From positions 1 through 32,035 of IMG/VR virus record IMGVR_UViG_3300043446_002476: 32,035 bases of DNA. One strand, written 5' to 3'. Within the stretch, counting starts at the first letter, position 1; each line of letters starts with the position of its first letter. This stretch comes from a virus. Made by a program: the position numbers and the translations under genes. The notes under the pieces were generated by a model. That model did no database searches, was not told where the DNA came from, and saw only the letters and a program-made list of their open reading frames with translations. This document shows positions 1,627 through 8,452 of the stretch, one piece after another.

Positions 1627-2739
1627 CTATTTAGAATTGCCAATACCCCAACACTCTCGAAGAATTCGTTTTACTACCTCTTTAGGGGATGCGACCGTTC
1701 TCATACGGTTCTGTGCATTTTTTGCCAATTTTATAGCAAATGCGTGGTCATCCCGCACCTCTCTATACCGACGTAATAATTCTTTGGCTGCGCGTTCTGG
1801 ATTATTTGGGCGTCCTACATTGTCTGTCCCACTCGGAGGTATTACTGCTGCGTAATCCACATTTGGGACAATAGGTTCCATTAATGGGTGTCTCGGGTAT
1901 TCAAACCCAATCGTCGCGCATCCTAGTGTCCAAAGTTCATGCTCACGATTACACCACGGGCCTCCAGCGAGAAACAAATTCCACCGATGCTGTGCGGCAA
2001 TTTTCCACCATGCATCGCGTGGAAGTTTTTCCGTGCGGTCCCATACAACAACTTCGTCGGGCGCCAAATCTTTCAAATACAATGCAACTTCCCGCCATGG
2101 ACGACGAATTCCATCCTCTCCCGCTCGTGAATACGAATAACTACCCGTGTCTCCTATTGTTCCCGCAAAAAATAATCGAAGATCTGTCGCCGTTTCTGCG
2201 GGTAATTGCCGATAGTAAGTGTCTGTAAATAACTCGGTATCATACGGATTCATCGTAAAATACAAAAACGGCTTATACTTGTGCGGTGCGGCAGTATTTT
2301 TTTGCACCCATTCGCGCTCGTACATGGTCATATAGACCGCAATACAATTATCACTTGCCGACCATTGACGACCAAACGTCGGGTAATCTTGCATATCAAT
2401 CATGCAAAATTCATTTGAATCTAATTCACGAATAACCACGACATCACAATTAAATACTCCTTGTGTCGTAATTCCATCGGCTATAAACGGTGAGACATAA
2501 TTTTCATCGCGACTGTCTGGACCAACGGATTCTCCAACTACTTCATGCCCGTGTTGACGTAACCATTTTGCGGCTTCCAACAATAAGACCGCATTATAAC
2601 GCGGCCCCCACGAATGAGGGCCCTCGTTCCAATTGCCAGAAGTTGTATACGTTGGTAATATACACGACTGATTGTTTCCAATATCAATTTGCGCCGATGG
2701 AACTCCCGCTACATCATATGAAGTAATTTGAAACCGCAT
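1627..2739 (-). CDS. Glycosyltransferase-like protein
   Basis: The protein is 370 residues, starting MRFQITSYDV at 2739. This start is chosen over an in-frame ATG at 2844 because AGGAGAG lies 3-10 bases before it and because the longer form would overlap the preceding gene by about 100 bases. The C-terminal half has features of a GT-B-like or exostosin-like glycosyltransferase: a FFAGTIG segment, then an RPWR helix, a segment ending in NLFLAGG, and an REHELWTLGCATIGFEYPRHP block resembling the sugar-nucleotide-binding end of such enzymes. A basic helical tail follows. I cannot assign a donor or acceptor. The position between the methyltransferase fusion and a tail fibre gene suggests it acts on a virion protein or on surface glycans, which is inference. 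No signal peptide or membrane segment is visible. Family assignment is by eye and moderate. Confidence 0.55.
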   Translation of the reverse strand: MRFQITSYDVAGVPSAQIDIGNNQSCILPTYTTSGNWNEGPHSWGPRYNAVLLLEAAKWLRQHGHEVVGESVGPDSRDENYVSPFIADGITTQGVFNCDVVVIRELDSNEFCMIDMQDYPTFGRQWSASDNCIAVYMTMYEREWVQKNTAAPHKYKPFLYFTMNPYDTELFTDTYYRQLPAETATDLRLFFAGTIGDTGSYSYSRAGEDGIRRPWREVALYLKDLAPDEVVVWDRTEKLPRDAWWKIAAQHRWNLFLAGGPWCNREHELWTLGCATIGFEYPRHPLMEPIVPNVDYAAVIPPSGTDNVGRPNNPERAAKELLRRYREVRDDHAFAIKLAKNAQNRMRTVASPKEVVKRILRECWGIGNSK

Positions 2740-2747
2740 GAACTCTC

Positions 2748-4115
2748 CTACGGAATGGTAATGACTCCTATTGCCGTTTCGCGAAATGATTCTGCGCAAG
2801 TAATAATTAACTGATCGACTGGATATCCCGCTAATGCAACCCAATCTTGTAATGGTCGTTTTACCAAGTTATCACCGTACACATATACAAGATGTGTCTT
2901 ATACGCAGATAATGCCTCGCGAGTTTTTTGCGCATCGTCCTCTGTCATTTCAGTAAGTCGCACAGGACAATACATCGCAATAGTTGTTTCTGGCGCGAAC
3001 CATCCGGTCCATTGCAACTCTTCAATTTTTGACGCATTCCACTTACCCACTAATCCAGATTGTACCGACCGAATAGCACTCTCATTGATATCGACTCCTC
3101 CAATAGAAATATCAGGACGACTCAATTTTGCCGTACGCAAGAGCCGCCCGTTGCCACACCCCAAATCAATAATTGCACCGTTGGTCGGCACAATATTTTT
3201 AATTTCCTCCACCAGTGGTGCATGGGATGCGAGCATTCCTGCAAAACTAGAAAATCCATTGTCCGTCCACAAATCTTCAGTGGGTTTTACATACCGTCCC
3301 TGGCGAGTAAACTGCCGACCATCGGTCGGTGGGGCCCAATCGGTGCGCGTAGACACTTTGATGGCGGGGCCGACAATCTCCGCGATACCGTTCACTCCAC
3401 TCCATCGCACAGGCCATGACAATACCGTATCGATGACCTTAACTTCTTCGGCGTATCCATACTTCTTCATCGCCTCGCGAGTCTTACGTCCAATTTCAAC
3501 CGTAGCATCGCATTGATAGGAACACGGAAGATGTGATACCCACCGAATCCCTAACCACCGCCATAACATATTCGCTTCAACAGGACCCGACGCATCTCCA
3601 TTAGACGCATACTGATCCCATGTGGTATCCACTTGTCCTGCACCCCATGTACGATGGAAGAATTCACGGCAACATGACGGATAGCCTAATACTTGGCCAA
3701 GCACTTCGTTGTTCTCCGCGATATTCTCCGTTTCTAAAATTAACGGTAGCACATTTTTATTAGCAATCAATACCCGATATTGCCATGGTTTAGTTGAATC
3801 AAATGCGGTAGGCGCGGACCCCGATGAATACGCATTATGTTCACGATTTGTTTGTGTAACAGGAATTACTACTAACCCATGTTTTGCCGCACGAGCATTT
3901 ACATGCAATAAATTTTGCGGCTCAACAAACGTATACATTGCTGGGCGAATTCCTTCAATGACCGTAATCCATTCAATTTCTTCACGGAGTGATGATACCC
4001 GTTCAATCAAAGGTTTCCAGTAGTCACGTTCAACCATTGACGCCCAGGCCCAGCGCGTCCATTCGGGAAGGGTCGGTCGATTTGGATCGAGAACTGAAGC
4101 GGTAATTGCTGCCAT
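2748..4115 (-). CDS. Cys-motif (DUF483-like) domain fused to SAM-dependent methyltransferase
   Basis: The protein is 455 residues with two parts. The C-terminal part is a class I SAM-dependent methyltransferase fold: DLGCGNGRLL at about residues 317-326 is the SAM-binding motif I, and GGVDIN at about 339-344 supplies the acidic residue that normally binds the SAM ribose. The N-terminal part holds LGYPSCCREFF (Cys148, Cys149) and HLPCSYQC (Cys198, Cys202). This pattern resembles the small cysteine family DUF483, although I am recalling that family and could not search. The four cysteines could bind a metal or iron-sulfur cluster. The gene starts 6 bases after the stop of a radical SAM gene, with AAGGA about 8 bases before the ATG, and the next gene's ribosome site overlaps its stop, so it is translationally coupled on both sides. 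A modification role on the same target as the radical SAM enzymes is inferred from context. The substrate is unknown. Confidence 0.7.
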   Translation of the reverse strand: MAAITASVLDPNRPTLPEWTRWAWASMVERDYWKPLIERVSSLREEIEWITVIEGIRPAMYTFVEPQNLLHVNARAAKHGLVVIPVTQTNREHNAYSSGSAPTAFDSTKPWQYRVLIANKNVLPLILETENIAENNEVLGQVLGYPSCCREFFHRTWGAGQVDTTWDQYASNGDASGPVEANMLWRWLGIRWVSHLPCSYQCDATVEIGRKTREAMKKYGYAEEVKVIDTVLSWPVRWSGVNGIAEIVGPAIKVSTRTDWAPPTDGRQFTRQGRYVKPTEDLWTDNGFSSFAGMLASHAPLVEEIKNIVPTNGAIIDLGCGNGRLLRTAKLSRPDISIGGVDINESAIRSVQSGLVGKWNASKIEELQWTGWFAPETTIAMYCPVRLTEMTEDDAQKTREALSAYKTHLVYVYGDNLVKRPLQDWVALAGYPVDQLIITCAESFRETAIGVITIP

Positions 4116-4121
4116 ACTATG

Positions 4122-5519
4122 TTATCCTTCTAATAAAGCGGCGTCTACATGATCGCCGTGGGGAATATTCACAATTGCGCTGTCGCTATGATCACCATGT
4201 TCGCTATGCGGAAGCCCCACATCCATATGATCGCCATGATGATCGCCATGCATATTTGTTGAACCATGATTAGTTGGCAATTCTCCTTTAGCGATAGCAA
4301 CCGCTGCATTCAAATGCATCTGCCGACCTTTTGACCATGCTTCAATAAGAATCTGTTCAATTTTTGGTCGAAGTGGAGATAGGGTAATCGGTTCTTCTCC
4401 AACTCCTCGCAATTTTCTTTCCATTTCAGTAAACTGTTCCTTCAATACCTCACAATGTGTCGAACGAAGCCGCCAATCTCCCTCACGTCCATCTTCAAAT
4501 TCTAATCCTGTGCCTGGACAATGACCCGTGCAGGTTATGAAAAATCGACAATCTTTACACCCCCCATGTTCTTGTGGGGTCACATAAAGTGACAATTGAC
4601 GCACATGTGCGCGAGTGCTCGGAAAATAATTACCGATTTGCCATGGGGCCGAATATCCAAACCCTTCACCTGGCAGCCAATCAATACCATCCTTTACCGC
4701 ACGAGTACAGTTTGCGGGACTCCCGTCATTTCCAATTCCTTGTACCGCAGCCGTGCTCCATCCATCACACGCAGCGAATACACACATTGCTTTACTTGCA
4801 TCACCGCGTAATAAGTCACGCGACTCATTGAAATTCAAAAATTTCATTTGGGTGAGTTCGTGTTCCAATGCGGATAATTCTCGCATGGCTTGTTTTAATT
4901 GGTCGTCAGGTAAAAACCATTTTCCCGCATTATAATCCATTTCTAAAAAATGAAAGTTAACAAATTGCACACCTTTACGATCTAACTCTCGAATCCATTC
5001 TTTGAATCGTGGGAATACCGCAGGGGCGCAATTTCCGGCATGAAGCGTGATAATTAGCGTTGGCCCGTGCCCCCACCACGCATTTGGTTCCTTAGATAAG
5101 GCGCATACCATATCAATAGCACGTAACGTTTTCTGTGTCGCCGTTCGTGTCGCCTCTAATGTACCCGCCCAGCGAGAATCGTTCAAATCATCAGGGCCAT
5201 CCAAACTAATGCCCACTTGCGTTTTATATTTCCGAAATAAATCAATATGCGCAGGAGTAATTAATGTCCCGTTTGTCTGGAGACCAGTTTGACCCCAATC
5301 CTCATATCCAACTTTTAATAACTCTTCCAGTTCTTCGAGCCGAATAAGCAGAGGTTCTCCACCAAATAATTGCCAAAATCCATTAGATTGTTTGGCGGCG
5401 GACAATACTTCTTTGCGATGATATCTAGCAGTAGGTGTGACTTTACGTCCTGCTTCTTCATAACAATATTCGCACCGAAGATTACATGTAACCCCTACGG
5501 GTAAAATTTCAATAGACAT
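4122..5519 (-). CDS. Radical SAM/SPASM protein with His-Xaa-Asp tail (copy A)
   Basis: The protein is 465 residues. CNLRCEYC (Cys12, 16, 19) is the CX3CX2C motif that binds the radical SAM [4Fe-4S] cluster, followed by GGEP at residues 53-56. The SPASM region is complete: Cys251-X14-Gly-X4-Cys271, then Cys321-X2-Cys324-X5-Cys330-X3-Cys334, and Cys356, the set that normally binds two auxiliary [4Fe-4S] clusters. SPASM enzymes usually modify peptides or proteins by thioether, C-C or C-O crosslinking. After about residue 417 the protein ends in a low-complexity tail with three HGDHxD units. It is a paralogue of the protein encoded immediately upstream (5526-7250) and shares GISLDGPDDLNDSRWAGTLEAT and LSLYVTPQEHGGC blocks. 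No clear ribosome-binding site precedes the ATG, which begins 6 bases after the upstream stop, so coupling is likely. The probable target is the His-Xaa-Asp protein at 7283-8452 or its own tail (inference). Confidence 0.93.
   Translation of the reverse strand: MSIEILPVGVTCNLRCEYCYEEAGRKVTPTARYHRKEVLSAAKQSNGFWQLFGGEPLLIRLEELEELLKVGYEDWGQTGLQTNGTLITPAHIDLFRKYKTQVGISLDGPDDLNDSRWAGTLEATRTATQKTLRAIDMVCALSKEPNAWWGHGPTLIITLHAGNCAPAVFPRFKEWIRELDRKGVQFVNFHFLEMDYNAGKWFLPDDQLKQAMRELSALEHELTQMKFLNFNESRDLLRGDASKAMCVFAACDGWSTAAVQGIGNDGSPANCTRAVKDGIDWLPGEGFGYSAPWQIGNYFPSTRAHVRQLSLYVTPQEHGGCKDCRFFITCTGHCPGTGLEFEDGREGDWRLRSTHCEVLKEQFTEMERKLRGVGEEPITLSPLRPKIEQILIEAWSKGRQMHLNAAVAIAKGELPTNHGSTNMHGDHHGDHMDVGLPHSEHGDHSDSAIVNIPHGDHVDAALLEG
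4143..4250 (-). repeat. HGDHxD tail of radical SAM copy A
   Basis: Residues 424-459 contain HGDHHGDHMD, HGDHSD and HGDHVD separated by short variable linkers. Each HGDHxD reads as two consecutive His-Xaa-Asp triplets, giving about seven triplets by hand count. The same triplet dominates the protein at 7283-8452. Confidence 0.9.
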
Positions 5520-5525
5520 GGCACG

Positions 5526-7250
5526 TTACCATAAAACAATACGTTTTCCATCGGTAGTAGTATGTTGTTCTCCACTAGTCCGTTTACGTGGTTGTGCTAG
5601 TGCGTAGTCCAGATGATCGGCATGATCATCACCGTGACCATCGCCGTGCGGAGAATATTGTTGTACCATAGATTCATCTACATGGTCACCATGAGGAGTA
5701 ATGTCTGTATGATCCCCATGTTCAATTGGGGGTGTAATTTCTGGCGCTTCATCCGTATGGTCACCGTGAGGAATAACATCCGTATGGTCGCCGTGTTGGT
5801 TATCCTCAACAGAAACCTCAAGCATAGGCGAACACGCATTATCTGTATGATCACCATGACGTTGGTCTACAATTGCCGCATCGGTATGATCACCGTGAGG
5901 CTGCTCAGGACGCCCACCCAGTAACGCAGCATCTGAATGATCACCGTGTCCATCCCCATGCGAGTTTGCTCTAGCCGGTGTTCCTAAAATCGTGGACAGG
6001 GAAAGTTTTCCTTCTGCAATGTCCTTGGCGGTTGACATCGGAATATTTTTTCCGTGTGTCCATCCCGTGTACATAATTTGTTCCATCGTTGCTAATACAG
6101 GAGACTGCGTTACCGGCATTTCGCCAATTTCTAATAATCGGCGCTCGCCTTCTTCAAACAAATCTTTCCATGTTTGACAATACGTAGTCCGCAGTCGCCA
6201 GTCCCCATACTGACCCGTGACGCTCTCTTCTCCAGTGCCAGGGCACTGACCCATACACATCACCCAGAATCGGCATCCCTGGCATCCTCCATGCTCCTGT
6301 GGAGTCACGTAAAGAGAAAGTTGCCGTTCGTGACTGCGATTCGTCATCGGGAAATTACCAATTTGCCATTTAGACGCTTCACCAAATCCTTCAGCCGGCA
6401 TCCAGTCAATACCGTCTTTATTGGTGCGCGTACAGTGTGACGGAGACCCATCACCCTCTAGTCCCTGTACTGCCGAGGTGTTCCACGGGTCGCAGGCGCG
6501 CCATACGCACATAACATTTCGATCATTGGCGCGGAGCAAGTCGATAATTTCCTTAAAATTAATAGCAGACGCATTGACCCATGTAGTTGATAACTCCCAT
6601 AAATCTAACATGACTTCCTTCATGCGGTCATGAGGAATATACCACTCACTATCTTTGGTCGCTTCCGCGTCTAATTCCATCACATGAAAATTAAACGAGC
6701 GAATGCCGCGCATGTCCATCTCAGAAAGCCATGCCTTCATTCTTGGCCAACCATCAAGGGTGGTATTTTTTCCGTGCAGCGTGATAATGAGACTGGGAAT
6801 TAGTCGTGTGTTGCCTGTTTCGTGTACGCGGGCGAGGAGCATATCAATCGCACGGAACGTTTTTTCGGTGGCTTTTCGAGTTGCCTCTAATGTGCCAGCC
6901 CAGCGAGAATCATTCAGATCGTCGGGGCCATCAAGGCTAATACCAACATGCGTATTGTATCGCTCAAACAGTTCGACATGCTTTGGAGTAATTAGGGTGC
7001 CGTTGGTTTGCACACCAGTGCTCTTCCACTTTTCATACCCGATGGCAAGCAATTCTTCTAGTTCGGGCAAACTAATCAGTAAGGCTTCCCCACCAAACAA
7101 CGACCATCGACTATCGGCGCTTTCAATCGCAGCCAACACCGCAGCACGATTGTATCGGAGAGTCGGGGTGCGAGAGCGGACAGGTTCTTCGTAACAATAG
7201 GCGCAGCGTAAATTACAGGTCACACCCACAGGTCTCACTTCAATACTCAT
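5526..7250 (-). CDS. Radical SAM/SPASM protein with long His-Xaa-Asp tail (copy B)
   Basis: The protein is 574 residues. CNLRCAYC (Cys12, 16, 19) is the radical SAM cluster motif. Residues 53-56 read GGEA in place of the usual GGEP, keeping the Glu. The SPASM set is complete: Cys253-X14-Gly-X4-Cys273, Cys323-X2-Cys326-X5-Cys332-X3-Cys336 and Cys358. It is paralogous to the downstream copy A along the whole catalytic region. From about residue 431 it carries an extra 140-residue tail with seven HGDHxD units plus HGDG and HADHLD variants, and ends in a basic stretch. Known SPASM maturases install crosslinks in peptide or protein substrates, and the tail may be a fused substrate or a recruitment element. 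GGAG lies about 9 bases before the ATG, and a CTAAATA box lies further upstream. It follows the His-Xaa-Asp protein gene by 32 bases, which supports an enzyme-substrate pair. Assignment to radical SAM/SPASM is firm; the reaction is not known. Confidence 0.93.
   Translation of the reverse strand: MSIEVRPVGVTCNLRCAYCYEEPVRSRTPTLRYNRAAVLAAIESADSRWSLFGGEALLISLPELEELLAIGYEKWKSTGVQTNGTLITPKHVELFERYNTHVGISLDGPDDLNDSRWAGTLEATRKATEKTFRAIDMLLARVHETGNTRLIPSLIITLHGKNTTLDGWPRMKAWLSEMDMRGIRSFNFHVMELDAEATKDSEWYIPHDRMKEVMLDLWELSTTWVNASAINFKEIIDLLRANDRNVMCVWRACDPWNTSAVQGLEGDGSPSHCTRTNKDGIDWMPAEGFGEASKWQIGNFPMTNRSHERQLSLYVTPQEHGGCQGCRFWVMCMGQCPGTGEESVTGQYGDWRLRTTYCQTWKDLFEEGERRLLEIGEMPVTQSPVLATMEQIMYTGWTHGKNIPMSTAKDIAEGKLSLSTILGTPARANSHGDGHGDHSDAALLGGRPEQPHGDHTDAAIVDQRHGDHTDNACSPMLEVSVEDNQHGDHTDVIPHGDHTDEAPEITPPIEHGDHTDITPHGDHVDESMVQQYSPHGDGHGDDHADHLDYALAQPRKRTSGEQHTTTDGKRIVLW
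5607..5960 (-). repeat. HGDHxD tail of radical SAM copy B
   Basis: Residues 431-548 contain HGDHSD (435), HGDHTD (452, 465, 486, 495, 511) and HGDHVD (520), plus HGDG, HAD and HLD variants at both ends. This is about 19 His-Xaa-Asp triplets by hand count. Linkers between units vary in length and sequence while His and Asp do not, so the triplet seems to be the conserved element. Confidence 0.9.
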
Positions 7251-7282: not shown

Positions 7283-8452
7283 TTACACGGATTCTGGTTG
7301 GTCTACATGGGTAATATCAGTGTGAAGAGAAACTTGTGCAACATCACTATGGCTATTCACAAACGACACGTCACTATGACTATTGACAAACGAAATATCA
7401 TTGTGCGTATTTACAAATGAAATGTCGTTATGAGTGCTCACACGGGATACGTCACTATGCGCAATACTGCGCGATACATCATTATGCGAATTTTGAAAAG
7501 ATATATCGGTATGCGCATCTGCATGTGAGTCGGAATGACTATCTACAAAATCTCCTGTAACATCGTGATGGTATTCAAGCAACCAACCATCGCTATGCAC
7601 GGGTGTTCGAGGTTCAAGCGGAAAATGCTGTGCATTGTTCGTATTGCCGCCAATGAAATTGGTGGGGCTATCATAATGATATCCATCATAATGAGGTTCA
7701 TCGGAGTAAGCATCAGAGTGCGAGTCAAAAAATTCCGCCGGTTGATCATAATGATTTTCTGGGTCATACCCACCATCACCATAAGGATAATAATTATCCG
7801 TATGCGTGTCGGTATGTGAATCGGAATGACTGTATCCCGCCTCGTCCGTATGATCATCATGTTGCTCGATTTCATCATCATGATAATAGGGTTCATCAGT
7901 GTACGCATCGGTGTGTGCGTCTGAATGCGCACTACTGAATGCAATATCGGTGTGCGCGTCGGTGTGGGCAATGTCCGTGTGCGCGTCCGAATGCGCAATG
8001 TCCGTATGGGCATCGGTATGTGCAATGTCCGTGTGGGCATCCGTGTGGGGAGTCACTGCGGTGGTATCGGTATGTGGAGTATCCGTATGTAAATCTGTGT
8101 GCGCTGTATCGGTATGAGAATTTACAAATGAGGTGTCATTATGTGCCCAGTGCTCATATTGCGATTCCCCAAGAAAATGTAACTGTCCGTTTGCACTAGA
8201 CGGCGCATACGAAGTCTCAATCCAGATAGAACCCGCTTTTCCCGTCTGCTGTTCTACTGCGGCTCCGTTTGCACGACGTTCAACCCCCAATGCGTCAATA
8301 TAATGAATATTATTCGCTTCAATCCACAGACTCCCCGATTTCGCACCAGCGGGTGTGGCGACCGTCGTACCTAAAAAACGGAAACGGGTGTTAGCCGCAT
8401 TTCGCCAATACAGATACGTTCCGTCAACCCACATCGAACCATTTGCTGCCAT
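7283..8452 (-). CDS. His-Xaa-Asp repeat virion-like protein, likely modification substrate
   Basis: The protein is 389 residues. Residues 5-100 hold three degenerate units of about 35 residues beginning GSMWVDG, GSLWIEA and GSIWIET, each with a hydrophobic beta-strand pattern (LHYID/LHFLG type) that I associate with phage appendage proteins. Residues 104-384 are dominated by His-Xaa-Asp: about 38 triplets by hand count, mostly HTD, HSD and HND, also HYD, HDD, HAD, HHD and HVD, with three Tyr-Xaa-Asp variants (YTD, YSD, YGD). No signal peptide, membrane segment or cysteine is seen. It starts 4 bases after the fibre-like gene stop, with GGAG about 11 bases before the ATG. It lies directly upstream of two radical SAM/SPASM genes whose tails share the triplet. 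A structural appendage that is crosslinked by these enzymes is my preferred reading. A metal-binding His/Asp fibre is the alternative. No family is recognised. Confidence 0.8.
   Translation of the reverse strand: MAANGSMWVDGTYLYWRNAANTRFRFLGTTVATPAGAKSGSLWIEANNIHYIDALGVERRANGAAVEQQTGKAGSIWIETSYAPSSANGQLHFLGESQYEHWAHNDTSFVNSHTDTAHTDLHTDTPHTDTTAVTPHTDAHTDIAHTDAHTDIAHSDAHTDIAHTDAHTDIAFSSAHSDAHTDAYTDEPYYHDDEIEQHDDHTDEAGYSHSDSHTDTHTDNYYPYGDGGYDPENHYDQPAEFFDSHSDAYSDEPHYDGYHYDSPTNFIGGNTNNAQHFPLEPRTPVHSDGWLLEYHHDVTGDFVDSHSDSHADAHTDISFQNSHNDVSRSIAHSDVSRVSTHNDISFVNTHNDISFVNSHSDVSFVNSHSDVAQVSLHTDITHVDQPESV
7301..8143 (-). repeat. His-Xaa-Asp triplet region with 9-residue periods
   Basis: Two stretches have a 9-residue period. 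The first, around residues 139-170, repeats AHTDAHTDI (27 bp at the DNA level). The second, around residues 342-370, repeats I/V-SFVN-T/S-H-x-D. The middle part is irregular and Tyr-rich. His and Asp of each triplet are kept while the residues around them drift. Confidence 0.9.

Follow-up and report, generated by a model that had tools for sequence, protein, structure and literature searches.

Substrate-like His-Xaa-Asp tails on candidate cyclophane-type radical SAM maturases of phages and bacteria

The His-Xaa-Ser system joins a radical SAM enzyme (HxsB, TIGR03978) to a His-Xaa-residue repeat protein with i,i+2 spacing. Links at the same spacing are formed by the three-residue cyclophane enzymes, which produce Tyr-x-Asp, Phe-x-Asn and His-C2 linkages (PMC11002830). 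ChlB (PDB 9GM3, 9GMC) is described as a radical SAM multiple cyclophane synthase whose fused HExxH domain subsequently beta-hydroxylates Asp and His of the substrate; the available part of that description makes no mention of an HxD tail. In borosins of the OphMA type (PMC7878506, PMC8429565), the modifying enzyme carries its substrate peptide fused to the C-terminus. A 2024 report described an 'rSAM module' in the Thermus phages Cumys and phiMa and offered DNA modification as a guess at its role (PMC11437467); in its accessible text neither HxD repeats nor an enzyme tail is mentioned.

Here we analysed a 32-kb IMG/VR contig of 32,035 nucleotides (the window), which carries large structural-type genes, one of them matching phage families of unknown function across 1,400 residues. 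Its minus strand encodes, in order, an HxD protein, two radical SAM enzymes (copy B, then copy A) and a DUF483-like protein that also carries a methyltransferase part; 6 to 32 bases separate the genes. The features are as follows.

7283-8452, minus strand: HxD repeat protein, the predicted substrate (389 aa), with 38 HxD triplets against 5.4 expected; Cumys and phiMa have a homologue in the same gene order.
5526-7250, minus strand: candidate radical SAM/SPASM-type maturase, copy B (574 aa; Pfam Radical_SAM E 1e-14), with a conserved CxxxCxxC and further conserved Cys.
5607-5960, minus strand: C-terminal HxD tail of copy B, with 19 HxD triplets including seven exact HGDHxD units.
4122-5519, minus strand: candidate radical SAM/SPASM-type maturase, copy A (465 aa; Pfam Radical_SAM E 5e-15), with ChlB and anSMEcpe as top fold matches.
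4143-4250, minus strand: C-terminal HxD tail of copy A, with 7 HxD triplets.
2748-4115, minus strand: DUF483-like domain (about residues 1-300) joined to a methyltransferase fold of class I (residues 280-455), with weak Pfam matches to DUF483 (E 0.0036) and to methyltransferases.

A 405-aa protein (1627-2844, minus strand) overlaps the end of the DUF483-methyltransferase gene and matches no family convincingly in Pfam, NCBIfam or PHROGs. The DUF483 domain itself falls short of the PF04467 gathering score (17.7 bits versus 25), and the protein is named DUF483-like because it is homologous to the annotated Cumys protein. When its model was used for a fold search, the methyltransferase half was matched and no match was found for the DUF483 half.

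Copies A and B are 56% identical and belong to the radical SAM superfamily. Both exceed the Pfam PF04055 (Radical_SAM) cut-off, the CxxxCxxC [4Fe-4S] motif is present, with C12, C16 and C19 invariant in 41 sequences, and the copy A model matches solved radical SAM enzymes. The best Foldseek match of copy A was ChlB (E 1.4e-12, TM 0.70 by target), with anSMEcpe also among the best. ChlB forms several cyclophanes; however, it shares only 18% identity with copy A, and no HExxH domain was identified in the window system. The triceptide maturases (XncB, OscB/GrrM, YxdB, HaaB, YhhB and AmcB) resemble the window family in being radical SAM enzymes with a conserved extra Cys. They also resemble it in having, encoded beside the enzyme gene, a substrate with an aromatic residue or His at i and a Cbeta residue, Asp or Asn, at i+2, and the substitution spectrum of the window family matches the links published for them. 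The window family differs from them in its DUF483 partner, the great length of its arrays in phage structural proteins and its substrate-like enzyme tail, and neither window enzyme reached the cut-off of any NCBIfam radical SAM family (at most 86 bits, compared with 310-450 for GrrM, XyeB, YhhB, FxsB and AmcB). The HxsB profile was outside the best matches of the window enzymes and weak for the relative at locus L014, and the arrays of the window family are depleted in HxS rather than built from it.

Relatives were collected with an alignment query, which recovered 25 viral and 54 genome loci (L numbers below); a viral scan with copy B as sole query gave no matches. The only annotated phages among them were the Thermus phages phiLo, Cumys and phiMa, whose enzymes are approximately 40% identical to those of the window (about 39% for Cumys and phiMa). 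A module of HxD-rich protein, radical SAM enzyme and DUF483 occurs in phages and in many bacterial phyla. At most of the family's loci, whether phage or chromosomal, the HxD-rich protein adjoins the enzyme, and a DUF483 relative, either separate or fused to the C-terminus of the enzyme, was detected at nearly all complete loci. Cumys and phiMa, which carry the same three genes with an enzyme and repeat protein homologous to those of the window, have them arranged as HxD protein, then radical SAM enzyme, then DUF483 protein; the module comes after the annotated baseplate and collar-fibre genes in Cumys. With tail and baseplate genes as neighbours, it is plausible that the enzyme acts on the fibre, as the first-pass annotation proposed. 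The GSxW(I/V)E...LxYxD-type module is repeated ahead of the HxD array in the N-terminal third of the window repeat protein (7283-8452) and in L004, L018, L027 and L078; it may serve as an anchor or as a leader-like region for recognition. In phiLo (L003 14807-19430) three HxD proteins are consecutive, one of them with 101 triplets in 782 residues.

The arrays define a target motif with a characteristic spectrum of substitutions. Across 50 nonredundant arrays HxD occurred 1269 times versus 245 in shuffles, and every array (50/50) was above expectation. Where an Asp lacked its His, Tyr stood at -2 in 108/328 cases (6.7-fold enriched), and where a His lacked its Asp, Asn stood at +2 in 54/149 (7.1-fold). 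Tyr-x-Asp exceeded expectation in 20 arrays and fell short of it in 9. FxN was 4.6-fold enriched overall, an excess that came mostly from related arrays (11 above expectation, 8 below). HxT was strongly avoided, and HxS was found 5 times against 134 expected (0.04). Two sister chromosomal loci (L067 4052-6670 and L069 2-1183) encode HxK arrays (PHIKIPLPHIK..., PHVKVPHVKHVK...) instead of HxD beside sister enzymes, which amounts to a natural exchange of Asp for Lys at unchanged spacing.

The spectrum agrees with an i,i+2 link from ring to Cbeta of the kind made by the triceptide enzymes, which is the predicted chemistry here, and not with metal chelation. The first-pass annotation had listed metal binding among the possible functions of the tails. 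Both His and Asp are common metal ligands and the tails are rich in them and predicted to be disordered, so tails and arrays could be imagined to bind metal for fibre stiffening or to store or deliver iron for Fe-S clusters. Yet HxH (0.07 of expectation), HxE (0.14) and ExD (0.11) are avoided, the tolerated replacements are Tyr and Asn, and the HxK arrays of L067 and L069 retain the spacing without a carboxylate. We therefore regard metal binding, which the substitution pattern disfavours, as improbable. With fair support, we infer that the array is crosslinked between His and Asp.

HxD is also found in small proteins. In four chromosomal clusters, RiPP-like peptides of 77 to 99 residues contain a single HID at the C-terminus or a few residues from it, at the following positions.

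L064 6660-6893, L071 4640-4897, L058 4713-4952 and L083 10670-10969: small HID-ending RiPP-like precursors.

The one neighbour tested, at L064, is a radical SAM protein like the YydG-type epimerase, as in RiPP clusters. HxD matches from Bradyrhizobium were rejected as substrates, as they overlap the enzyme gene in other frames. These neighbourhoods bear on the suggestion made for Cumys and phiMa that the module modifies DNA, in which case the tail would be incidental. Deazapurine genes are reported nearby in some cyanobacteria in the accessible text (PMC11437467), but the third gene of the module is the HxD array protein, and an array stands beside the enzyme across phyla, including in the form of RiPP-like small precursors. 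A role in DNA modification thus appears highly improbable.

Both window enzymes carry HGDHxD tails, and the triplet counts (19 in copy B, 7 in copy A) and coordinates given in the first-pass annotation proved exact. All 19 triplets of copy B lie inside 5607-5960, and an eighth HxD of copy A (HID) sits in the core, unrelated to the tail; composition alone predicts 2.3 and 1.2 HxD for copies B and A, respectively. That the enzymes end in the repeat does not hold for copy B, since a short HxD-free stretch follows it and terminates in GKRIVLW; close relatives of copy B terminate in GKKVVLW or ...KKLW. In the AlphaFold model of copy A, residues 421-465 have pLDDT under 50, so that the tail is predicted to be disordered, with no ordered part in the model.

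The tails consist almost entirely of the target motif. Of the 246 His and 260 Asp in 33 nonredundant tails, 94% and 89%, respectively, lie within the 231 HxD triplets. Five of 24 orphan Asp in tails have His replaced by Tyr in the second triplet (HGDYTD, HGDYSD), as in substrates. In copy B, His and Asp of the tail are under purifying selection, as judged by comparison with L006 and L007. Between the window and L006, changes at tail His/Asp positions were 18 synonymous versus 2 nonsynonymous (counts that ignore kinship, from an alignment that favours HGD-HGD pairing), compared with 34 versus 64 at other tail positions (likewise ignoring kinship). The number of tail triplets increases with the number of substrate triplets (Spearman 0.62, n=16; thinned 0.72, n=12; kinship ignored). 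The claim that the tails share a motif with the neighbouring target, and not by accident, is strongly supported.

The middle residue sets tails apart from substrates, more sharply than originally noted: Gly occupies it in 14/26 window tail triplets and in 0/38 of the repeat protein (Fisher p = 2e-7). Across the family the values are 141/242 tail triplets versus 193/1269 substrate triplets. Tests within single genomes are cleaner because the scan pattern used below itself favours HGD and HTD, and beside the window these gave p = 2e-11 for L007, 6e-9 for L009, 0.004 for L032, 0.002 for L010 and 0.07 for Cumys.

Tails of 2 to 25 triplets were found in dozens of phages and in some bacteria. Alignment of homologues gave a divided answer on whether the tail is general. 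Close homologues do not lack it: it is present in all complete members of the clade to which the window enzymes belong (L006 copy A, cut by the contig end, was tallied as unknown), as well as in phiLo, Cumys, phiMa, L017, L024 and the bacterial contigs L031, L032, L034, L041 and L082. Most chromosomal enzymes and the viral clade L014-L023 are tail-less, including the L018 enzyme, which adjoins an array of 62 HxD. As tail-less relatives stand beside equally long arrays, the reaction in general can do without the tail, which, being optional in the family, would tune the process rather than define the reaction. Parsimony on an enlarged enzyme tree gave six tail changes, of which the starred branches force only one. 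Independent gains of the tail were dropped as a conclusion, since the five or more forced changes of a smaller tree shrank to one when more enzymes were included.

A blind scan of 2.9 million viral contigs (IMG/VR) used only the HGDHTD DNA pattern, with no enzyme sequence. It relied on two narrow codon patterns, undersampled other codons and returned many single chance matches (60 ORFs without clustered HGD). HGDHTD clustered with more HGD in 34 ORFs, and 29/34 were these enzymes. The other five comprised a truncated tail, a tail next to an interrupted enzyme frame, two HxD-rich proteins and one unexplained ORF. Searching the PDB with an artificial HGDHTD repeat yielded no useful match, and no paper joining His-Xaa-Asp with radical SAM was found in the open-access literature, subscription papers lying outside the search. 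A substrate-like tail on such enzymes is apparently new to the literature.

Might the tail be a functionless, neutral carry-over, for instance from recombination with the repeat gene? Its absence from many relatives and its very variable length would suit such an origin. However, its middle residue is unlike that of the local repeat protein, His and Asp are under purifying selection, and the HGDHTD consensus is common to, and persists in, widely diverged enzymes. The HGDHxD copies in copy B differ synonymously at 41/105 compared codons and thus do not derive from a fresh DNA duplication. We consider neutral carry-over very improbable.

Taken together, these observations suggest a model, judged by us to be evenly balanced between right and wrong, in which HxD cyclophane-type maturases carry a selected, substrate-like tail that is modified by their own or the sister enzyme and keeps the maturase on the array. 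The maturases would join the side chains of His (i) and Asp (i+2) within HxD triplets, most likely giving a three-residue cyclophane, and the crosslinked target would be the repetitive phage structural protein from the adjacent gene. The disordered tail would most likely enter the active site of its own or the sister enzyme and be modified there. It could then act as a bound substrate or product mimic that holds the maturase on the HxD array, perhaps also on DUF483, and so help it to work through dozens of sites. Modification of the tail in cis or by the sister copy, and its use as a handle on the array, have less support than crosslinking of the array itself.

Because the Gly preference of the tail is unlike the local substrate, the tail may instead be bound without modification. 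As such a product-mimic or docking peptide it would keep the maturase, and possibly a separate DUF483 protein, on the HxD array. Its disorder in the model and the scaling of its length with that of the substrate would suit docking, and no tail-bearing enzyme is fused to DUF483, while many tail-less ones are. DUF483 is separate in many tail-less loci too, so tail and fusion do not simply replace each other. His and Asp are, moreover, as strictly kept in tails as in substrates, and the second tail triplet shows the substrate-like replacement of His by Tyr, both of which argue against docking alone. We consider an unmodified tail possible, though rather unlikely.

A more specific form of the modified-tail model can be proposed only tentatively: a self-modifying radical SAM enzyme whose HxD tail, once altered in cis, would grip at many points a virion protein that owes its hardening to dozens of His-Asp cyclophanes. 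If true, virions would have a new protein-hardening chemistry, and the borosin layout would gain a counterpart among radical SAM enzymes. Borosins are backbone alpha-N-methyltransferases, and the fused-tail layout alone is common to both; their fused peptide is the substrate, whereas the window family also has separate substrates and self-modification is here only predicted.

More generally, the module points to radical SAM crosslinking of phage structural proteins after translation; the target motif is concrete, and cells of many phyla have a counterpart. As phiLo, Cumys and phiMa grow on Thermus thermophilus HB8, laboratory phages are at hand for testing. The tail would also serve as the enzyme's own reporter, and mass spectrometry on a single purified protein could expose the chemistry. 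A tandem pair of paralogous radical SAM genes is present in the window, L007, L008 and L009; in L007 and L009 a second HxD protein lies downstream, and thus each enzyme may have its own substrate.
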